Below, in pieces: positions 5,831 through 43,998 of a DNA stretch of 43,998 bases. Below the pieces are notes generated by a model. That model did no database searches and was not told where the DNA came from. It saw only the letters and a program-made list of their open reading frames with translations. The position numbers and the translations under genes were made by a program. Positions within the stretch are counted from its first letter, which is position 1. Each line of letters opens with the position of its first letter. This stretch comes from a virus. The stretch covers positions 1 to 43,998 of IMG/VR virus record IMGVR_UViG_3300046616_000300. One strand, 5' to 3'.

Positions 5831-5841
5831 CTTGAATTATA

Positions 5842-5889
5842 TGGTCGGGACGGAGTGATTCGAACACTCGACCCCTAGCACCCCATGCA
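5842..5889 (-). other. prophage attachment site attL: 3' fragment of tRNA-Pro(GGG)
   Basis: Read on the minus strand this is the 3' part of a tRNA. It has the loop A-T-GGG-G-T (anticodon GGG, proline), the 3' anticodon-stem strand GCTAG, the variable loop, a T-arm with 5-bp stem GAGTG/CACTC around TTCGAAT, the acceptor strand CGTCCCG, the discriminator A and CCA. The acceptor sequence is that of Pseudomonas proline tRNAs. The 5' strand of the anticodon stem (expected CTAGC) matches only in its last two bases, and no D-arm follows. The identity therefore breaks at about 5889. This is the expected host-side remnant after integration into the 3' half of a tRNA gene; the intact copy should be at the far end of the prophage. 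Confidence 0.85.
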
Positions 5890-6099: not shown

Positions 6100-6309
6100 A
6101 TGCCAAATTCTGACTTGCTCCCTTCCCTGCTGTTCAAGCTCAACGAAAACCAACTCGCCTTGGAGGCTGCCATCATGGAGCTTTCGAACTGGGTCGAGCA
6201 GTGCGGTTCGGCCGACGTCGCCGACAACGTGCGCGGCGCCCTGGAAGCGATCGATAAGAATGAAGAATTCATCAAGATCACGCTCGCGGTGATGATGACG
6301 CCGGAGTGA
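6100..6309 (+). CDS. small prophage protein of unknown function (69 aa)
   Basis: The protein has 69 residues. The start at 6100 has a GGAGG site 9 bases upstream; an upstream in-frame extension has no site and is not protein-like. It is predicted mostly helical, beginning with LLPSLLFKLNENQLALEAAI and ending acidic. I believe similar short proteins occur near the ends of other Pseudomonas prophages, but I know of no function. It is the first gene inside attL and is on the plus strand, opposite to the late genes, so it belongs to the accessory (lysogenic-conversion) set rather than the structural operon. Confidence 0.75.
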   Translation: MPNSDLLPSLLFKLNENQLALEAAIMELSNWVEQCGSADVADNVRGALEAIDKNEEFIKITLAVMMTPE

Positions 6310-6416: not shown

Positions 6417-6977
6417 ATGTCTAAATTCGTCACCGCAGACTTCGGATCAGCGGCCCCGCTACCTAAAAAACCCGTAGATGCACTTGTCAAGCAGCGTACA
6501 GTTTTCAACGACGACCGAACTCACCGATTCACGCTCTTCCGGCACTGGGGCAACCCAGAGCATTACGCGTGCGGAATCAGCATGAACCCTTCAGGTGCGG
6601 CGGAAGAAGGGGACGATCCAACTGTTGATCGCATGGTATGCAGAGCAATGGACTTGGGCTTCGGCGCCTATTACCAGCTCAACGTGATGTCAATTCGCGG
6701 TACCGATTCGTCGCACCTTGCCACAGCATCGGAAGTCAACCTCTCGGAAAACGACGATCACATTCGGCGGATCGCAGCTGGGGCAGGAATAGTTATAGTG
6801 AGTTGGGGGAATGCCGGTCACAAGCGAGGACTCGAGGTGGAGAAAATTCTGCGAGAGGTGTGCGACCCAGCAAAGGTCTTTTGTTTAGGCCTCAACCAGA
6901 ACGGGTCTCCAGTCCATCCGCTCTATCAAAAGAAAAACGCTAAATTGCAGCCCTACATAATCACACCGCGATTCTAA
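6417..6977 (+). CDS. DUF1643 family protein
   Basis: The protein has 186 residues. The block from about residue 38 on matches the DUF1643 pattern: R-F-T-L-F-R-H-W, then S-M-N-P-S-G-A-A-E-E-G-D-D-P-T-V, Y-Q-L-N-V-M-S-I-R-G-T-D, V-S-W-G-N-A-G and C-L-G-L-N-Q-N-G-S-P-x-H-P-L-Y. The conserved Asn-Pro-S-G, Trp-Gly and His-Pro-Leu-Y elements suggest an enzyme-like pocket, and the fold is often likened to uracil-DNA-glycosylase-like proteins. No activity is established that I can name. DUF1643 proteins recur in phages and islands. The ribosome binding site is weak (GAG only). Upstream DNA is AT-rich and likely carries its own promoter. Confidence 0.8.
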   Translation: MSKFVTADFGSAAPLPKKPVDALVKQRTVFNDDRTHRFTLFRHWGNPEHYACGISMNPSGAAEEGDDPTVDRMVCRAMDLGFGAYYQLNVMSIRGTDSSHLATASEVNLSENDDHIRRIAAGAGIVIVSWGNAGHKRGLEVEKILREVCDPAKVFCLGLNQNGSPVHPLYQKKNAKLQPYIITPRF

Positions 6978-7123: not shown

Positions 7124-7402
7124 ATGGATATTGAAAAGCTCTCGCTCCTGCTGAAACCCTGGCTACGTGTGGACACTTGGCATACCGGTCATCCGATGGA
7201 CGACCAGCGCTTCCACCGTGCGTTGAAAGCAGCATTTGATGAGTTTGGCGTACAAATAAGCTCGGACGATTTTCGGAAAGCAATCGCCGCCTGCTTGAAA
7301 GATCACCGCCCAGGGGACGTAGGGGCATTCGAAAGCGATATCGAAGAGTTCGCGCAACGTGGCGAGGATATCGCCGGTTATCTGTTCGACCTGAAGCCTT
7401 AA
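7124..7402 (+). CDS. hypothetical protein (92 aa)
   Basis: The protein has 92 residues, is soluble and is rich in charged and aromatic residues (start MDIEKLSLLLKPWL, then a W-H-T-G-H-P segment). The ATG is preceded by GAGG at a normal distance. I do not recognise the family. It is on the plus strand between the DUF1643 gene and the first R-x4-H protein, in the accessory block next to attL. It could be a small partner of its neighbours, but nothing in the sequence proves this. Confidence 0.65.
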   Translation: MDIEKLSLLLKPWLRVDTWHTGHPMDDQRFHRALKAAFDEFGVQISSDDFRKAIAACLKDHRPGDVGAFESDIEEFAQRGEDIAGYLFDLKP

Positions 7403-7674: not shown

Positions 7675-8304
7675 TTGGAGAGATGCCTTTTGGCCAGCGT
7701 TGGTGCATCGGTGCGTAAAGCGATTGATGATTGGATGTGCGGCGACTTGGAATTCGCCATGCTTCATGCTTGCAACGCCGTAGATGGAACTGCGAGCAAG
7801 CTGCACCCCGGTTTAGGCAGCAATATCCGCTTCACAGGGTTACTCCGCGATAACTATGCAATCTTCGGCCCAATGGGGCTTCCAGGCATTAATCTGGCGG
7901 ATACTCGCTGGCCAATTAAAGTAGAACGCCCGAAAGCACATGGCGGCTTACCTGACATAGCAGATGTAATCTACGGGATACATCGCTGTACCCACGGACA
8001 CGGCGGAGAACTTCCTGATGGTTTCGGCCTTTGGCCGGACGCCGCAGGGCCTGATAGGAGTACGCGATTTAGTGTCGAGAGAGGGAAAATCCAATTGTCC
8101 GATCGGGTTATTTTCGGACTTCTTGGCGTTGCTATTTTCTCGCCGGCTAACATCGGGCAAAGCGTGCCGGAGGGATACCATTTGACGTTTGCCGGGACAG
8201 CTCTACCGATAAACGAATGGTGGGGGCGCACGACGGATTTTCTTAAGTTGGCCGAGCTGGAAGTGATGCCTTCTGTGATCATAGACTTCAAGCACTGGCG
8301 CTAG
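7675..8304 (+). CDS. hypothetical protein with R-x4-H motif (possible HEPN-like), TTG start
   Basis: The protein has 209 residues from a TTG at 7675. A stop codon four codons upstream fixes the start at or after this point, and the next candidate is a GTG at 7711. The coding region is well behaved to its stop. The N-terminal third has helices around D-D-W-M-C-G-D-L-E-F-A-M-L-H-A-C-N-A-V-D. The middle contains I-H-R-C-T-H-G-H-G-G-E-L, in which R-C-T-H-G-H is an R-x4-H motif like the catalytic motif of HEPN RNases. I do not recognise a named family. The neighbour at 8703 has a comparable motif, so the two may form a pair (inference). Confidence 0.65.
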   Translation: MERCLLASVGASVRKAIDDWMCGDLEFAMLHACNAVDGTASKLHPGLGSNIRFTGLLRDNYAIFGPMGLPGINLADTRWPIKVERPKAHGGLPDIADVIYGIHRCTHGHGGELPDGFGLWPDAAGPDRSTRFSVERGKIQLSDRVIFGLLGVAIFSPANIGQSVPEGYHLTFAGTALPINEWWGRTTDFLKLAELEVMPSVIIDFKHWR

Positions 8305-8702
8305 CCTACAAGTTCATTTTGTGGCATCAAAGCCTGGGATGCCGCATAAAAGTCGCCAAAGGCCTTTGTAATCAAGTCTTTGAACTACAAATCAGCCCCG
8401 AAAAAACCATCTTTTGCGACTCTTTAGAACCCAACAAACATTGTTCCAAACAGTTGCATTTTGGAGAAAATATCCCCCTTCGAAGAAATCCCATCTCCGG
8501 CGTTCTGCCGTAAACACAAACCTACTGCTCGTCGTCCTACCCTCGCCCAATTGTCTTGCCTCAATCACTGTACATCCGAACAGCACCTTTAAAGCATGAC
8601 CAGGCCCAGAACTGATCCATTCAATCAACGAGATCATTGACGACTACCATGACAATACCTAACCGACCACCATCACCGAAAAAAGCAACGGGAGTAAGGT
8701 AG
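8305..8702. other. AT-rich intergenic region between the two R-x4-H genes
   Basis: About 400 bases without a supported gene. Short frames on both strands (8319-8513 plus, 8392-8637 minus) lack a convincing ribosome binding site. The last 60 bases lead into the AACGGGAGTAAGG ribosome-binding region of the next gene. A promoter for that gene is likely here but I cannot single one out. Confidence 0.5.
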
Positions 8703-9656
8703 ATGACACCAGAAAGGATCGTTGAGTTATGCGGGATGTTCTGTACGGAAACGGCTTCTGGAACATACTCTGCAAAGTCTCAGCAATATAGATTGCTGGA
8801 AAATGGAATATCGTTTCACTTACTTAATTATGACGCGCTTTCAACCGCAATAATTGGCCTTTCTGAAGTGCTACTACGGCCAAACTTAAACACCATAGTT
8901 GATTCTGACCACTACGCTCTTTGGGGGTGGTGTGGAGAATTATTACTAGGACCAATGGCACAAATAAAAATACACAACAACAAACTTATGGACCAAGAGA
9001 TAAACAATCTGTATCAAACCTGTATTCGTGCGGCACTTGCTAAGTGTGACCGCCCTACCCAGCAGTTGCCGAGAGAGGAGCAAAGAAAAAAAGACATTCG
9101 AGCGTTTATGAACCCTGATGGTGGACAGCGATTGAAATCATCTTCGGACATGATTCTCGCTTACCTTGCCTTCCCTCTACTCGAGGCACTTCTAAAACAA
9201 GTTTGCAACGAGTTTATTACGCCAGACTCAAAAACAATAAAAAACTTTACAAGAACCACCTTTAACAACCCAAAACATATAGTCCATGTCGGCACAGAAA
9301 TCAGCAGCTTAAAAATTTTACTCAATCTTTTATATGATCATGTAGCATCTGCAGACTTAAAAACACTCATCGACAAATATCGATTCCATATAAGTGACGT
9401 TGGCGCCAAGCTAGATGCATTTGAACTGATTTACGATTGGCGCTGCGCCTCCCTCCATGGAAACACAAATTTTCCGACTATAGGTGGGGTTATACTTAAC
9501 TTCTGCCTACTAATCTCTGTCTACCAAATTAAAGATGAATATGAACTATGGCGTGAAGAGGGAAATATATCTTGGTCAGGCTGCGAAAGAAGGGGGATAA
9601 CCATTGACAATTTTTATCCACCTGGATGCTTCTTACCTTCATTACCAATCGAGTAG
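8703..9656 (+). CDS. putative HEPN-domain protein (317 aa), accessory gene
   Basis: The protein has 317 residues. The ATG is preceded by GGGAG and AAGG at good spacing. The C-terminal half looks like a HEPN domain: a helix (AFPLLEALLKQVCNEF), a second (SLKILLNLLYDHV), and then F-E-L-I-Y-D-W-R-C-A-S-L-H-G-N. The last element is an R-x4-H followed by G-N, comparable with the R-N-x-x-x-H-G of Swt1/Abi-type HEPN RNases. Codon use is clearly more AT-rich (many AAA, AAT, TTA) than the phage structural genes, a sign of separate acquisition. It converges on the Rz gene with a 36-base gap. An RNase or abortive-infection role is inference from the motif and place. Confidence 0.7.
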   Translation: MTPERIVELCGMFCTETASGTYSAKSQQYRLLENGISFHLLNYDALSTAIIGLSEVLLRPNLNTIVDSDHYALWGWCGELLLGPMAQIKIHNNKLMDQEINNLYQTCIRAALAKCDRPTQQLPREEQRKKDIRAFMNPDGGQRLKSSSDMILAYLAFPLLEALLKQVCNEFITPDSKTIKNFTRTTFNNPKHIVHVGTEISSLKILLNLLYDHVASADLKTLIDKYRFHISDVGAKLDAFELIYDWRCASLHGNTNFPTIGGVILNFCLLISVYQIKDEYELWREEGNISWSGCERRGITIDNFYPPGCFLPSLPIE

Positions 9657-9692: not shown

Positions 9693-10208
9693 TCAACGAG
9701 CAAAAGCATGCACATATGCCTGACATGCTCGCAGAGCAATCAATCCTTGGTCGCCGGCGTCGGTGATGGCGACAATTCGTTGAGCAAGCGCTGGGTCAAG
9801 TCGGGCGCGCGTTCCTCCATGAACCACGCTGCCGGTGCCGGTATCGGCTGACACTGCACAGCCACCGGCTGAATCCGTGGCGTCGAGAAGGACTGACAGC
9901 CGCAAATCAGAAGTGGCAAGGCGATCGCGCAGACGCGCCTGGTTTGCTTGAGCATCGCTCAGTTCCTTGTAGTGGATTTGTTCACTGGCCGACAGGCGCT
10001 GCTCGAGTGCCAGGCGCTTGTCCTGATCGGCGCGCACCTGGGCGGCCGCCGCGTTGCTGATGGTGTCCAGATCGGACTGGTGCAGTAGCGCCTGACCGGC
10101 GAGCTGCTTACCGTAGCGCCAGTCCTGCACCTTCCACACGCCACCGGCGGTGAATAACAGCAGCGCCAGCACGCCCACCAGCGCCAACTTCAGCGCGGCG
10201 GGACTCAT
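9693..10208 (-). CDS. Rz: Rz-like inner-membrane spanin
   Basis: The protein has 171 residues: an N-terminal signal-anchor (about residues 7-24, LALVGVLALLLFTAGGV), then an Ala/Gln/Arg-rich coiled coil (about 40-105) and a short C-terminal part. This is the layout of an i-spanin, which spans the periplasm with Rz1 and fuses the membranes after the endolysin has cut the wall. The ATG overlaps the endolysin stop (ATGA). The nested lipoprotein frame inside its 3' half is the matching o-spanin, which makes the assignment firm. Confidence 0.88.
   Translation of the reverse strand: MSPAALKLALVGVLALLLFTAGGVWKVQDWRYGKQLAGQALLHQSDLDTISNAAAAQVRADQDKRLALEQRLSASEQIHYKELSDAQANQARLRDRLATSDLRLSVLLDATDSAGGCAVSADTGTGSVVHGGTRARLDPALAQRIVAITDAGDQGLIALRACQAYVHAFAR
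9740..9955 (-). CDS. Rz1: Rz1-like outer-membrane lipoprotein spanin, nested in Rz
   Basis: The protein has 71 residues, read in a different frame wholly inside the Rz gene. It starts M-L-K-Q-T-R-R and has the lipobox L-L-I-C-G-C (lipidated Cys about residue 20), followed by a proline-rich mature part (P-I-P-A-P, S-P-S-P-T-P). Length, lipobox, proline content and nesting are all those of lambda Rz1. It should sit in the outer membrane and bind the C-terminus of Rz. Confidence 0.85.
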   Translation of the reverse strand: MLKQTRRVCAIALPLLICGCQSFSTPRIQPVAVQCQPIPAPAAWFMEERAPDLTQRLLNELSPSPTPATKD

Positions 10209-10630
10209 GGCACATCCTTGAAGAACACGTGGTGACCAAGCGCCAGCGTCTGCTTGGCGCCTTTCACCCAGGCCGGTGGTTTCGACATGGTGGTCGCGTA
10301 GTAATGGGTGGCACCGCCGGTGGGGTCCGGCACCTTTCCATCGATTACCTGGTCAGCGGCAATCCGCGCCTGCGCGAGCTCACGGAACGGGATCTGCTTG
10401 GCGCCACTCAGGTAGGCGAAGTTCGGGTCGTTCCTGTTCCAGCAACTGAACTGGTACGGCTTCTGGCACACACCGGCATAGCCCTCCCCCCACCACGACT
10501 TGTCTTTGCCGTCGTTCACGCGGTTGCGGATGGTGCAGGCCACGGCGATCTGGCCGGCCAGGGATTCGCCGCGGGCCTCGCCCCACAGCGTGCGGGCGAG
10601 GATGTCGCGGTCTTTCTCGGATACGGTCAT
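10205..10630 (-). CDS. endolysin, SleB-type cell-wall hydrolase
   Basis: The protein has 141 residues of the Hydrolase_2 (SleB-like) family, which cleaves peptidoglycan glycan strands. The motif L-W-G-E-A-R-G-E at residues 15-22 carries the expected catalytic Glu18. It is followed by A-V-A-C-T-I-R-N-R-V, the W-G-E-G-Y-A-G-V-C-x-K-P-Y-Q-F-S-C-W segment and G-A-T-H-Y-Y, all typical. The start is the ATG at 10630 with GGAG 7 bases upstream; a GTG one codon before is too near the site. There is no signal peptide, so it needs the holin to reach the wall. The holin genes are about 30 kb away at 40.4-40.9 kb. Confidence 0.9.
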   Translation of the reverse strand: MTVSEKDRDILARTLWGEARGESLAGQIAVACTIRNRVNDGKDKSWWGEGYAGVCQKPYQFSCWNRNDPNFAYLSGAKQIPFRELAQARIAADQVIDGKVPDPTGGATHYYATTMSKPPAWVKGAKQTLALGHHVFFKDVP

Positions 10631-10643
10631 CACTTTTCTCCGG

Positions 10644-10669
10644 GCAAAAAAATCCCGCTCGATGGCGGG
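10644..10669 (-). terminator. terminator-like hairpin upstream of the endolysin gene
   Basis: CCCGC/GCGGG stem with a 6-base loop, followed on the minus strand by A and seven Ts. It lies directly before the endolysin ribosome binding site. It is inside the late operon, so it would be bypassed by antiterminated polymerase. Confidence 0.6.
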
Positions 10670-10691
10670 TGCGTTGTTCGGTGGCTGCGCG

Positions 10692-11057
10692 CTACATCAC
10701 GTCGATGGCTATCGCTTCCGGATCAGCGACGATCACCGGAACCGCTGGCTCGATCGGCCAGACCGGCGCGGCGTACCACGTCGGCTGAACCGTGACCTTG
10801 CCCAGGGCAAACTTGTAAGTCTTCCAAGCCTTCAGGCTGACGATCAATGCGGCCTGCTCGGTCTGATCCTCATCGGTGGCTTCGCCAACATCGATGCCAT
10901 AACCCAGCGTGTCGACGCGGTCTTGAATGCGAGCGATCTGCGTCACCGCTTTGGCGTTCTTCGCGGCCAACTCGGCTCTGGCCTTGGCCAGTTGCTCGAC
11001 TTGAACGGCAGCGTCCTTCATGTCCTTGGTGACCAACTGCGACCAATCAATGCTCAT
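10692..11057 (-). CDS. tail-fibre assembly chaperone-like protein
   Basis: The protein has 121 residues from the ATG at 11057 (GAGGT site 5 bases upstream). An N-terminal coiled-coil (QLVTKDMKDAAVQVEQLAKA) is followed by the block LIVSLKAWKTYKFALGKV and then a proline/tryptophan tail (W-P-I-E-P-A-V-P). The last two elements resemble the C-terminal region of caudoviral tail-fibre assembly proteins, and its place after the fibre genes fits. The start overlaps the end of the preceding gene by 11 bases. The chaperone role is inferred from similarity of pattern and position. Confidence 0.65.
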   Translation of the reverse strand: MSIDWSQLVTKDMKDAAVQVEQLAKARAELAAKNAKAVTQIARIQDRVDTLGYGIDVGEATDEDQTEQAALIVSLKAWKTYKFALGKVTVQPTWYAAPVWPIEPAVPVIVADPEAIAIDVM

Positions 11058-11382
11058 CGGTGACCTCACTCGCATCGGCAGGTTCTGGAAGGGGCTGGGG
11101 CAACTGGACAAGGCCGTCTGGCACATCTACCAAGGCGGCGGGAAAGGCTTGTTCCGGACTGAAGTTCGCGGGGATTGGCAGGAACATGGCCAACTTGATT
11201 TCGCCGCTGGTTTTTTCAATATCACCAATGAACCACTTACTGGTGATGGCGACGCCAGGCAGCGTGCTGCCTTCGGTCAACGGCGAGAAATCGAACACCT
11301 CGCCGTTGACCATCAAAGTCTCCCCGCGTTTCTCAATCTCCAAAACATCATCGCAGCGTGTCGGCCACAACTTGATCTGCAT
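11047..11382 (-). CDS. hypothetical protein following the tail fibre (111 aa)
   Basis: The protein has 111 residues from the ATG at 11382, with a strong GGGAGG site 7 bases upstream that lies inside the fibre gene. The ATG shares one base with the fibre stop (TAATG), so translation is coupled. The sequence starts M-Q-I-K-L-W-P-T-R-C-D-D and is beta-rich with a long proline-rich acidic tail. I do not recognise the family. The fixed position between fibre and fibre chaperone suggests a role in the fibre or its assembly. Confidence 0.7.
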   Translation of the reverse strand: MQIKLWPTRCDDVLEIEKRGETLMVNGEVFDFSPLTEGSTLPGVAITSKWFIGDIEKTSGEIKLAMFLPIPANFSPEQAFPAALVDVPDGLVQLPQPLPEPADASEVTDEH

Positions 11383-40405: not shown

Positions 40406-40600
40406 TCACTTGCTCAGCTTCTTCTGGACGATCACGCGAGCGATCATCACCAGGAGGCCCAGCGCACCATAGGCAATCGGTGGCAGCACGGCCTGTAGTT
40501 GCGGCATCAGCTGTTCAGCGATACCCAGCACGGCAACCGCGCCACCCGCCTGAACGCTGGTCATGCTCAGCGCTTGTTTCCAGTTGTCGATCAGTTGCAT
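40406..40600 (-). CDS. small holin-like membrane protein (64 aa)
   Basis: The protein has 64 residues. It starts M-Q-L-I-D-N-W-K-Q-A-L-S-M-T-S-V-Q-A-G. A hydrophobic stretch lies at about 18-34 and a stronger one at 39-57 (I-A-Y-G-A-L-G-L-L-V-M-I-A-R-V). A basic K-K-L-S-K tail ends it. I associate the pattern with Pseudomonas phage holin-type proteins (DUF7940-like). It starts 3 bases after the other holin gene stops. One of the two may be the holin and the other an antiholin. Confidence 0.75.
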   Translation of the reverse strand: MQLIDNWKQALSMTSVQAGGAVAVLGIAEQLMPQLQAVLPPIAYGALGLLVMIARVIVQKKLSK

Positions 40601-40603
40601 GGG

Positions 40604-40933
40604 TCACTCCTGCCTCTTGGGCAATTTGAAGTCGGTGAATCGGTCAGCCAGGGCAGCAACCTTCTTCACGCCGAGGGTGCCGATGATTGCGCCCAGCGCT
40701 GCCGCCAGACTCGACGGTAGGTTGAAGTACTCGAGCAGCGGGAATGCCCCGGCCGTGATCGCGCCACACAGGCAGGATTCGAGCAGGGCCTGTCGCCGCC
40801 CCCCTCCCCCGTAGATCACGCGCAAGAAGGCGATCCAACACGACAGCGCCGCGGCATAGAACATCGGGGCATGCTGGCTGAGCCAGGCCATGACGATGAG
40901 CCAGGTGTCTGGTTTGTCGGGCATGTTTGGCAT
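40604..40933 (-). CDS. phage holin (lambda-family type)
   Basis: The protein has 109 residues from the ATG at 40933 (GGGAGG site); the long upstream in-frame stretch is not protein-like. It shows three hydrophobic segments: W-L-I-V-M-A-W-L-S and F-Y-A-A-A-L-S-C-W-I-A-F-L-R-V-I (18-49), the C-G-A-I-T-A-G-A-F-P segment (61-75), and S-L-A-A-A-L-G-A-I-I-G-T-L-G (80-93). A basic R-F-T-D-F-K-L-P-K-R tail follows. It forms the membrane lesions that release the endolysin. It is the first gene downstream of the candidate late promoter. Confidence 0.85.
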   Translation of the reverse strand: MPNMPDKPDTWLIVMAWLSQHAPMFYAAALSCWIAFLRVIYGGGGRRQALLESCLCGAITAGAFPLLEYFNLPSSLAAALGAIIGTLGVKKVAALADRFTDFKLPKRQE

Positions 40934-41118
40934 CCGGATTCCTCCCTTGTGGGGAGCGATAGTTGGTCCGGCAATCCACGCCTTCCTCATCCGCTCGGAG
41001 CAAAGACGGGGGCGTGGGTGCCAGATACGAAAAGGCCCCCGCGAATGCAGAGGCCTGAATGAGGCCCTCATTCGGCGAGACGACTGAAGCGCCGGGGGGC
41101 TTGGGTAAATCGCGGCCA

Positions 41119-41147
41119 ATAAAAAACCCGGCACAGTGGCCGGGTTT
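41119..41147 (-). terminator. strong terminator between the Q-position gene and the holins (candidate tR')
   Basis: Nine-base arms AAACCCGGC/GCCGGGTTT with a 6-base loop are followed by TTTATT on the minus strand. Two more hairpins follow downstream (about 41030-41052 and the perfect repeat at 41057-41073). The place just after the candidate late promoter is that of lambda tR'. Confidence 0.8.
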
Positions 41148-41189
41148 CTATGTGTCAATCCCTAACGCGCAAGATCGACAGGATGGATA

Positions 41190-41219
41190 AATATTCTCTC
41201 ATTCTCTCACTCATTGCAA
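41190..41219 (-). promoter_or_regulatory. candidate late promoter pR' with 8-bp direct repeat
   Basis: On the minus strand TTGCAA (41219-41214), an 18-base spacer and AATATT (41195-41190). The spacer contains the direct repeat GAGAGAAT-GAGAGAAT, a possible Q-recognition element. The strong terminator starts about 45 bases downstream, as in Q-type late control. Confidence 0.5.
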
Positions 41220-41229
41220 TGGCTATTTG

Positions 41230-41901
41230 CTACGCCGCGCAACTTTCGATCAAGCCCTCGGAATCCAGCAGTTCCTGAGCAGCAGTGAGTGCCTCATTCA
41301 CCAGGTCATCCAGCGTCTTGCGGATCGATGAGCGCCACCGGTACCGGGTCGACTCTGGCTTGCCGTCGTTGTCCCAGTTGTCGATGTTGTACCAACCGAC
41401 AGGGAGAACCGCTGTTGATCGCTTCAGCGTCTGCTTGCGGTCCACGGTGTCATCCATGCCGCGCAAGCCCTTCTCGTTGAACGAATCAACCAGTGCCTTG
41501 TTCTTGGCAATGGCCTCGGCCTCACGACTGACCACTTCGACAGTGGCCGACTCATGCTTGCCGCCAACCTGCGGAATGGCCCAAGTCAGAATCGCGCACT
41601 CCCTGAACCGCTTCGGCGCTGGCGACTTGACCGAGTTCAACAGTTCCAGGATGGCGCCGTGCTTGCGATCGTCATGCGTGGAGTACTTCGCAACCAGAGC
41701 CCTCCAGTGCGCAGCCGACAGCGACTTGTGCAGGCGGCCGAACACCCAGCAGTCGGTGAGGAATGCGGCCTCCTTGCCGACGATCTCCCCCTTCTGCTTG
41801 GCGCACTGCACCTTGGGCTCAAAGTCGCACCCACCGGCAGAGTTGATGGTTTCGGCGGCCAGCGCCCGAACTACTGCGGATACCACGTTGCGATAGGTCA
41901 T
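41230..41901 (-). CDS. protein in the Q (late antiterminator) position
   Basis: The protein has 223 residues from the ATG at 41901, which overlaps the NinG stop by 4 bases. It begins M-T-Y-R-N-V-V-S-A-V-V-R-A-L-A-A-E and has C-D-F-E-P-K-V-Q-C-A-K-Q-K, a W-R-A-L-V-A-K-Y-S-T-H-D-D-R-K segment and a helical C-terminus. I see no zinc-finger set like lambda Q. Its site directly after ninG and before the late promoter and holins is exactly that of Q. The call rests on position, and other Pseudomonas phages carry similar proteins there. Confidence 0.6.
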   Translation of the reverse strand: MTYRNVVSAVVRALAAETINSAGGCDFEPKVQCAKQKGEIVGKEAAFLTDCWVFGRLHKSLSAAHWRALVAKYSTHDDRKHGAILELLNSVKSPAPKRFRECAILTWAIPQVGGKHESATVEVVSREAEAIAKNKALVDSFNEKGLRGMDDTVDRKQTLKRSTAVLPVGWYNIDNWDNDGKPESTRYRWRSSIRKTLDDLVNEALTAAQELLDSEGLIESCAA

Positions 41902-42500
41902 GCTGCTCTCCCCTTCAGCTCTCTCGTCTTTGCCCGGTACTCGATCTTGATGGCCTTTATTTCTTCTACGGTGTACTTGCGAGCCGGATGAGGACCTTCG
42001 ATCCAGGTCACCTTGTCGGCGCCGATGCGCTGCACCAGGCGGATGCGGTACTCCACCGCGTTGCCGGACAGGTTCCGATTGCACTTCACACACTGGCGGT
42101 GGATGTTCAGGGGCTCGAAACGCAGCTCTGGGCAGGCACCAACCGAGCGATAGTGACCGGCGTCCCAGCGGCTGCCGGTGATCAGGTCATGATCGTTGGG
42201 CGTCGAGTCGCAGCTGATGCACGGCAGATGAGCGTCACGCAGGCGCACGTACTCGTTTACCGCCGCCTGGGCTTCGCGCAAATGATCCGCCCGGCTCTTC
42301 AACTTTTCCTTGCGGACCTTGATCTCCCGGCGCTCTACCTGGGCCAACTCCTTGCGCTTTTTTTCCTGCCTGCCACGAGCGATGGCGACAGCACAGTCCG
42401 GCGAGCACCAGGTCTGAAAGCTCACTCTGGGTACAAATGAGGCCCTGCAGGTTGCGATCCGGCATTTCTTTGGGCGCGGCTGCTTTGCTGTGGGAGTCAT
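41898..42500 (-). CDS. ninG: NinG/Rap-family recombination protein
   Basis: The protein has 200 residues (lambda NinG has 204). It starts with basic residues and paired cysteines (C-R-I-A-T-C, W-C-S-P-D-C), followed by a long charged helix. The conserved C-terminal half has C-I-S-C-D, D-A-G-H-Y-R-S-V-G-A and N-I-H-R-Q-C-V-K-C-N-R. NinG is a structure-specific nuclease that helps phage recombination. It overlaps NinB by 4 bases. Confidence 0.92.
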   Translation of the reverse strand: MTPTAKQPRPKKCRIATCRASFVPRVSFQTWCSPDCAVAIARGRQEKKRKELAQVERREIKVRKEKLKSRADHLREAQAAVNEYVRLRDAHLPCISCDSTPNDHDLITGSRWDAGHYRSVGACPELRFEPLNIHRQCVKCNRNLSGNAVEYRIRLVQRIGADKVTWIEGPHPARKYTVEEIKAIKIEYRAKTRELKGRAA

Positions 42501-42970
42501 GCAGCCTCCTGACTCAGCAGATCAGAGAAATACACACCCTGCTGGGCAAAGCGCGCGACGATGCGGTCGGTGTAGGCCACGCCTTGGGCGCGGTTGAACA
42601 GGCTGGTCACCGGGAAACCATCGGGACCGAACAACTTGCATTCGCCCATCATGTCCAGCTTCGTTTCGTACGGGAGGTGACGCATGACCCGGTACCATTC
42701 GGCTTGGAACCCCGCATCCTCGTTCAGCAGAATCTGCACGCCGATGTGCAATTTGCAGTACTGGCGGGCGTCGGCGGCGTCACCGATCTGGGTCATCTCG
42801 GCGATACGCTTGTACATCGCAAACCACAGTCGGTTCTGGTCGAGCGTGCGGTCCTTGCCCGGGCGCAGCGACACAACGACGAACTTCTTGTCGCGGTACA
42901 TGGTGGTCAGGCTGGTGATGGCTTCGGATAGCTTGGCCTGGCTGTTGACGGAGATTTTGTCGGTCATCAC
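42497..42970 (-). CDS. ninB: NinB/Orf-family recombination mediator
   Basis: The protein has 157 residues, near lambda NinB (146). The family pattern is present: L-R-P-G-K-D-R-T-L-D-Q-N-R-L-W-F-A-M-Y-K-R-I and D-A-A-D-A-R-Q-Y-C-K-L-H-I-G-V. It binds single-stranded DNA and SSB and acts in recombination in place of RecFOR. Overlaps join it to the genes on both sides. Confidence 0.92.
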   Translation of the reverse strand: MMTDKISVNSQAKLSEAITSLTTMYRDKKFVVVSLRPGKDRTLDQNRLWFAMYKRIAEMTQIGDAADARQYCKLHIGVQILLNEDAGFQAEWYRVMRHLPYETKLDMMGECKLFGPDGFPVTSLFNRAQGVAYTDRIVARFAQQGVYFSDLLSQEAA

Positions 42971-43761
42971 AGACGCTCCTTGCGAGTCAGTTGCTCCACC
43001 GCTTTCAGTTGGTCAGCCTTGCGCAAGGCGAGTCGTCGGCGTTCTGACCGCGCATCCCATCGAGACTGAATGTCTTTGCGGCGTCGATGTGCCTGAAGCT
43101 CATCCCTGACCTGCTGCCAACGGGCGCGCAGGCTTGCGGATGGCTGAACAGGTGACCCGGTCAGCAAGCCAGCAATGGCCTGACCATCTGCGGTGATGGG
43201 CGGAATCCGCAAATCAGCCAAATACTGAGTTCCGGCTTGCTGGGTGATCAGTTGCATACGGACCGCCGATTCGATGGCTGTCACCCGCCGAGTCGGATCG
43301 AAACCAAGGGACACGCTCCATGTCACCGGGGCTGCTTCGGCGCGAGCCGCCGTTACCAGGCGCTCATAGGCGCTCATGAAGGCCATTCGGGCACCGACTT
43401 TGTCGCCAAGTTTCAGAATTGGTGCAGCGGCACTCATGGCTTGCTGGACTTCTGCGGTCATCACCACAGTTTCGATTTCATCACCGGCCATCAACGCAAT
43501 TGACCATGCCTCGTCCTTGCCCGGGCGGCCGTCGGCAGCCTGAACACGTTGCAGGATGTCAGCCATGGTCAGCTTGCCTTTCACCTCGAGGCGGCAGGCC
43601 CTCAGCGCACCGCGCACTACCGGCACTGGGTAGGCGCTCAGGTCTTCCGCCATGATCGCCGCAGTACCTGGGTTCATTTCCTGCCCCATGGCCTCGGCGG
43701 TGGCGATGATGGCCGCCGCCAACCCTGCTACCTGGGCGTCGTTCATTTCAGAGGTATTCAT
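42967..43761 (-). CDS. replication-region protein of unknown function
   Basis: The protein has 264 residues from the ATG at 43761 (GGGAG site). The N-terminal part has A-A-I-I-A-T-A-E-A-M-G-Q and Y-P-V-P-V-V-R-G-A-L-R-A-C-R, G-K-L-T-M-A-D-I-L-Q-R-V, which resembles domains near helicase loaders in other phages. The C-terminus is very basic (R-R-R-K-D-I-Q-S-R-W-D-A-R-S-E-R-R-R). I cannot name the family with confidence. The place upstream of ninB is that of late replication genes in lambda-like phages. Confidence 0.7.
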   Translation of the reverse strand: MNTSEMNDAQVAGLAAAIIATAEAMGQEMNPGTAAIMAEDLSAYPVPVVRGALRACRLEVKGKLTMADILQRVQAADGRPGKDEAWSIALMAGDEIETVVMTAEVQQAMSAAAPILKLGDKVGARMAFMSAYERLVTAARAEAAPVTWSVSLGFDPTRRVTAIESAVRMQLITQQAGTQYLADLRIPPITADGQAIAGLLTGSPVQPSASLRARWQQVRDELQAHRRRKDIQSRWDARSERRRLALRKADQLKAVEQLTRKERL

Positions 43762-43998
43762 TGCGCTCTCCCGCCTGACGCTTGGCCAAGACCATTTGTG
43801 CAGCCTGCTCAGCGGCGGAGACATTCGCCTCGGTGCGTTCCATCTGGCGGGCCGTGGCCCCGTTGATGCGCTGACCAGTCACCCACTGGGTGTGGTAGCT
43901 CTCGGCGTTGGCCAGCAGCTCGTTGAGGCTGTGGCATTTGCGCAGCACGGCGGCATCGCTGGTTTTCAGGAAGTGGGCTGCGACGTGGTGAGCGATAT
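43748..43998 (-). CDS. hypothetical protein, C-terminal part (start outside the window)
   Basis: The frame is open from the right edge to a stop at 43748, so a GTG at 43948 need not be the start. The readable part has 82 residues, ending V-L-A-K-R-Q-A-G-E-R-N-E-Y-L, with a helical middle (L-N-E-L-L-A-N-A-E-S-Y-H). It overlaps the next gene by 14 bases. I do not recognise it; it lies in the early/replication region. Confidence 0.7.
   Translation of the reverse strand, partial: IAHHVAAHFLKTSDAAVLRKCHSLNELLANAESYHTQWVTGQRINGATARQMERTEANVSAAEQAAQMVLAKRQAGERNEYL

Follow-up and report, generated by a model that had tools for sequence, protein, structure and literature searches.

Variable cargo at the tRNA-Pro attachment site of Pseudomonas prophages includes a previously unnamed, putatively HEPN-like protein family

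The DNA analysed, called the window throughout, is the 43,998-nucleotide stretch at positions 1 to 43,998 of the IMG/VR virus record IMGVR_UViG_3300046616_000300. Two of its genes, here named P1 and P2, lie between an attachment site (attL) and a lysis gene (Table 1). An earlier note on this DNA had placed both genes at attL. The attachment site is real, but the genes do not directly adjoin it: 1.8 kb lie between attL and the start of P1 and 2.9 kb between attL and that of P2, and the stretch from attL to P1 contains a 69-aa ORF, a DUF1643 gene and a 92-aa ORF. The anticodon of the partial tRNA, read by eye, is GGG; ARAGORN found no complete tRNA at attL, and in BLAST searches the region matched the annotated tRNA-Pro of a coliphage and, over 61 nt at 98%, phiPSA1-type phages. 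The GC content is 53.5% in P1 and 41.2% in P2 as against 57.7% in the phage backbone, so the second gene is indeed AT-richer, as had been noted. Scans of the P1/P2 region for promoters, terminators, Rfam families and inverted repeats gave nothing above chance. At the other end of the window (40600-43998) the record breaks off within a holin/NinG/NinB region. A scan of right-end proteins yielded no integrase, so the prophage seems to be cut off on this side.

Table 1. Features of the interval between the attachment site and the lysis gene (positions in the window).
Feature	Position	Strand	Remarks
attL, 3′ half of tRNA-Pro	5841..5888	-	left edge of cargo slot
69-aa ORF	6100..6309	+	commonest slot resident
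DUF1643 / phrog_3230 protein	6417..6977	+	cargo; PF07799 E=1.3e-29; phrog_3230 E=2.8e-31
92-aa phrog_3439 protein	7124..7402	+	cargo; phrog_3439 E=2.4e-18
P1	7690..8304	+	ORF opens with TTG 7675 (209 aa); likely start TTG 7690 (204 aa)
P1 H31	7765-7767	+	
P1 R104	7984-7986	+	
P1 H107	7993-7995	+	
P1 H109	7999-8001	+	
P1 E112	8008-8010	+	
P2	8703..9656	+	317-aa orphan, 41.2% GC
P2 E161-A-L-L-K165	9183-9197	+	HEPN-like spacing to the next motif
P2 R247-C-A-S-L-H252	9441-9458	+	HEPN-like spacing to the preceding motif
171-aa gene	9693..10208	-	spanin-like by eye; first gene of conserved lysis side
Lysis gene	10205..10633	-	cell-wall-hydrolase-like by eye; right edge of slot

Viral contigs contain the att core in at least 120 stretches. 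We took as slot intervals those in which this 48-nt core is paired with a homologue, in the orientation to be expected, of the lysis gene of the window. Such a homologue lies opposite the core, at 222-7435 bp, in 39 loci (a few of them duplicates of the same contig), so that in prophages at the same tRNA-Pro the interval spans 0.2-7.4 kb. The 69-aa ORF, for which no Pfam family scored above the cut-off, has 28 further matches in att-bearing loci, a few of them duplicates or weak, including two contigs (L002 and L003) in which it lies beside P1. The same 48-mer recurs 5′ of P1 in these two contigs, which we infer to be Pseudomonas prophages from the common att site and neighbours, and L002 has at the equivalent place a similar 175-aa gene, the counterpart of the 171-aa gene of the window. 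Among the slot occupants P1 was found in the window, L002 and L003 only (3 of the roughly 120 contigs that have the att core), and P2 in the window only. The DUF1643 gene was likewise found in the window and in no other att-bearing locus.

Other prophages fill the slot with different genes. In L152 (2982-4409, minus strand) the att core is separated from the lysis gene by an ApeA-type HEPN defence gene (ApeA_NTD1 E=8.6e-23, HEPN_Apea E=5.9e-13, PADLOC PDC-S58 E=2.3e-36) and then an acyltransferase gene. L161 (1376-1918, plus strand) carries a 181-aa DUF4145 protein with the canonical motif R-N-I-F-A-H; DUF4145 is counted among the HEPN families (PMC3710099). Since both of these lie there, HEPN-type proteins occur in the slot repeatedly. 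The slot of L130 (8723-10815, plus strand) holds an AAA_21 ATPase and a DUF4276 partner, which resemble components of AbiL, AriA and HEC-01, with weak matches to AbiLi, AriA and HEC-01A, and which are a candidate OLD/PARIS-like defence system of two genes. In L155 (7524-10567, minus strand) an MBOAT acyltransferase is accompanied by a 509-aa partner, probably for surface modification. The flanks are constant while the cargo varies and, in sister prophages, includes established defence genes; the interval from att to lysis gene is thus a genuine variable cargo slot in a group of Pseudomonas prophages, and a site for defence and surface-modification cargo. The suggestion that this prophage end is a place for added defence genes is thereby borne out.

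The 209-aa frame at 7675-8304 with R-C-T-H-G-H, described earlier, is present on the plus strand; its start is probably the TTG at 7690 rather than that at 7675. The relatives in L002 and L012 begin there with ATG, and 5′ of this codon, at a fitting distance, lies a GGAG. P1 has no match in Pfam, NCBIfam, PHROGs or PADLOC (2023) and is the founder of a previously unnamed protein family. Its closest relatives are those of L002 and L003 (71-72% identity; the two are identical to each other), followed by one in an Actinomycetes MAG (L004, 58%), those in three other viral contigs (L011-L013, 49-56%) and those in actinobacterial genomes, where the ones first aligned (L007-L010) have 41-46% identity and more were found in L024-L031. 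Members thus occur in prophages of Pseudomonas and in other phages, in actinobacterial elements linked to integrases and on chromosomes of mycobacterial type, the chromosomal copies being presumably mycobacterial to judge by their neighbours and att site. A match in Klebsiella phages (KOX1 gp56) was dropped, as the motif is absent from it. Within the close chromosomal group pairwise dN/dS is about 0.18-0.27, which shows that the family is under purifying selection. In a midpoint-rooted tree the chromosomal copies cluster together and adjoin an integrase-linked copy, consistent with domestication of the gene in that clade.

An R-x4-H motif by itself says little: 49 of the 106 open frames of at least 120 codons in the window contain one, as do shuffled sequences (P=0.40 for P1, P=0.32 for P2), and we rejected the motif alone as evidence for HEPN because it is at chance level. 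The motif of P1, R104-C-T-H-G-H109 (numbered on the 209-aa ORF), carries weight because its arginine and histidine are conserved across the family. H31, R104, H107, H109 and E112 are present in 14 of 14 distinct sequences, down to 41% identity, and D37 and D111 in 13 of 14 each, the window copy being the exception at position 111. The pattern H-R-C-x-H-G-H-G-D-E, searched blindly across 2.9 million viral contigs, retrieved members of the P1 family only. P1 therefore has the conserved R-x4-6-H of HEPN proteins (PMC3710099), and the earlier reading of it as HEPN-like is, by this conservation, probably right. Two further HEPN features are not universal. A polar N, D or H right after the arginine is typical but not obligatory; in the P1 family this residue is C in eight sequences, W in five and R in one. 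An acidic residue in helix 2, often as E-x3-[KR], occurs in many HEPN families but not in all; helix 2 of the window P1 has no E-x3-[KR], and the family has D37 and K42 in 13/14 sequences each (D-x4-K), with K or R at position 41 in 9/14.

An AlphaFold2 model of P1 based on six aligned sequences (pLDDT 81.5, pTM 0.84) has helices at 9-21, 25-43, 49-59, 61-68, 95-109 and 144-155 and strands between 117 and 142. HEPN domains consist of two alpha-hairpins; an insert separates helices 2 and 3, and the R-x4-6-H ends helix 3 (PMC3710099). The predicted helix order and motif position agree with this layout: residues 44-94 form an insert with two helices, and the motif ends helix 95-109, helix 3 of the bundle. 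The motif loop has a pLDDT below 50. In a Foldseek search against the PDB nothing scored below E=0.001; the 49 weak matches include AbiV (9bj7, six chains) and the HEPN entries 2hsb, 1o3u and 1ufb, and among them MIT and other unrelated helical bundles score like the HEPN entries. AbiV, a single-gene phage resistance protein, is the best weak fold neighbour, with scores that are not significant (E about 3-10, TM 0.22-0.39); it typically lacks the motif His (PMC3710099), which P1 has. The strands that follow the motif helix in the P1 model, ahead of the final core helix, recall Csx1-type HEPN proteins, where a beta-hairpin directly follows R-x4-H (PMC3710099); P1 differs from Csx1 in having no CARF domain, CRISPR context or sequence match. 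By hhalign, helix 2 of P1 (23-60) falls in register with a helix of Abi_C (PF14355), which has a GHG-type motif end as well, at a non-significant probability of 0.1% and with a longer R-to-H spacing in Abi_C. As hhalign linked P1 to neither Abi_C nor HepT, nor these two known HEPN families to each other, its result is uninformative for P1.

P1 thus has no significant sequence or fold match to any HEPN protein, and no significant profile match to a HEPN family in Pfam, NCBIfam, PHROGs or PADLOC. Tha, the product of gp03 of the Staphylococcus phage 80alpha, serves as a calibration: it is a prophage-encoded 301-aa HEPN RNase of defence with a C-terminal motif (PMC11087260), and in our searches it stayed below threshold in Pfam (E=0.025, 0.029) and had no match in PADLOC. 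Because a proven HEPN protein is missed in this way, the silence of Pfam and PADLOC on P1 and P2 speaks only weakly against HEPN. On the strength of the model, P1 likely has a HEPN fold.

P2 is less tractable. The 317-aa frame with R247-C-A-S-L-H252-G-N was found as described. No family of Pfam, NCBIfam, PHROGs or PADLOC matched it, and no relatives were found in viral contigs, whether queried with the 317 residues, with sub-regions or with the degenerate pattern YDWRxxxLHGN. The complete protein likewise found none when run against GTDB contigs, phages, plasmids and about 300 actinobacterial genomes, and a DNA search in E. coli returned nothing. Of the weak actinobacterial matches, those read turned out to be citrate synthase, and a Pseudomonas plasmid match (E=9) lay in a non-genic frame. 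The earlier note had put the motifs of both proteins after HEPN-type helices; this holds for P1 in its model, and for P2 R247-x4-H252 falls near the end of a helix in a single-sequence model whose helix pattern agrees with HEPN but which, at pLDDT 35.9, is unusable. An E-x3-[KR] lies upstream of the P2 motif, and the joint chance of this and R-x4-H is 0.09. Tha resembles P2 in size and in its C-terminal motif, but there is no homology between them (BLASTP E=5.7, over 24 residues outside the motif). ApeA of L152 shares with P1 and P2 the slot between att core and lysis gene and an R-x4-H, there R-N-D-I-S-H; it differs in its length of 476 aa and in being matched by Pfam and PADLOC, which match neither P1 nor P2, and P2 has no BLAST similarity to it. 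The best reading of P2, from its sequence pattern, is an orphan Tha-like candidate.

We consider it most probable, at about 0.52, that P1 and P2 are unrelated, independently acquired single-gene cargo of the slot, P1 being the type of a new HEPN-like family with the mechanism proposed below. Because the invariant residues of P1 match the HEPN site and sister slots hold anti-phage genes, both are probably phage-defence cargo. Tha sets the precedent of a prophage HEPN defence gene next to an integrase, acting by abortive infection (PMC11087260). It is like P1 and P2 a prophage gene at the integrase/att end with an R-x4-H and a single effector; its motif is R-N-S-I-M-H and its function is proven, whereas P1 is shorter and has another motif context. 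By analogy with established HEPN biology, a lysogen would make P1 at a low, harmless level and the protein would dimerise. Upon infection by a competing phage P1 would be activated, and R104 and H109, aided by the invariant H107 and E112 and by H31 and D37 of helix 2, would cleave RNA, so that translation and phage growth would stop in an abortive infection as with Tha. From its sequence pattern, P2 would act likewise through a putative HEPN-like domain at its C-terminus, preceded as in Tha by an N-terminal sensor of unrelated sequence. The dimer, the RNase activity, the trigger and the defence role are all proposed here on these grounds.

The neighbourhood of P1 could suggest another role, in which it is an integrase accessory or regulator that controls excision or integration. 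The family is linked to recombinases: in L004 the start of P1 overlaps the stop of a tyrosine integrase (ATGA), in L056 it follows a tyrosine integrase after 2 bp, in L012 the relative is near a tyrosine integrase and in L057 beside a serine recombinase. These recombinases are unrelated, of Tyr and Ser type, and the chromosomal clade keeps P1 under purifying selection with no recombinase beside it, which makes co-transfer likelier than a role in recombination. No integrase lies beside the window copy either, and the Tha inhibitor of 80alpha, for a long time listed as an excisionase, turned out to be none (PMC11087260); we regard the accessory role as improbable. Less probable still is that P1 or P2 is a HEPN-MNT toxin or that the two form one system. 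Two R-x4-H genes in tandem would fit it, and the earlier note had looked to a conserved gene pair. Yet there is no nucleotidyltransferase gene beside them (the neighbours are the DUF1643 and phrog_3439 genes and the lysis genes) and no neighbour gene of P1 is constant across loci; at the other of these att sites that carry P1, P2 is missing. As the sister phages have P1 without P2, the pair is not conserved and we rejected the two-gene system.

For P1 itself the main competing view is that it is not a HEPN protein, with H31, H107, H109 and E112 binding a metal in some other all-helical fold and R104 incidental. The several invariant histidines plus a glutamate, the likeness of H-x-H-x-[DG]-E to metal motifs, and a fold match that is no better for HEPN entries than for MIT and other helical bundles speak for this view; the invariance of R104, the helix order and motif position that follow HEPN, and the recurrence of HEPN and AbiV entries among the weak matches speak against it, and we think it unlikely. 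A broader formulation, somewhat more plausible although tentative, leaves the fold aside: P1 may represent a so far undescribed family of anti-phage nucleases whose compound site, H...R-x2-H-x-H-x2-E, either derives from HEPN or belongs to a different helical fold that depends on metal. The family would travel as one gene in phages and in elements linked to integrases, over a range from Pseudomonas to actinobacteria, and would have been domesticated in a chromosomal clade of mycobacterial type. The strongest competitor concerns P2, which could be an orphan of no relation to HEPN that has its R-x4-H by chance, and we would give this somewhat less than even odds. The shuffling results, the want of relatives and of a usable model, and the dissimilarity to both Tha and ApeA favour such a match, while the HEPN-like order and spacing of E161-x3-K165 and R247-x4-H252, with its low-confidence helix, and the HEPN proteins in the slot of sister prophages count against it.

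If the reading of P1 as slot cargo of HEPN-like type is true, it would be a compact single-gene candidate defence family missed by Pfam, NCBIfam, PHROGs and PADLOC 2023. It would offer a precise hypothesis on catalysis and, with members in phages as well as on chromosomes, a ready-made set for comparison. The att-lysis slot at tRNA-Pro would in turn be a place to mine, as HEPN, AAA/DUF4276 and surface-modification genes interchange there. Two observations were made at other P1 loci. In L056 and L058, two genomes of one order, the P1 relatives adjoin argS and an integrase is present in one only, which looks like a decayed element that left P1 behind. In L004, about 1.7 kb from the P1 relative and beside the integrase, a protein with R-N-L-I-V-H and no Pfam match (10293-11141, minus strand) is a candidate for a second unnamed HEPN-like protein.
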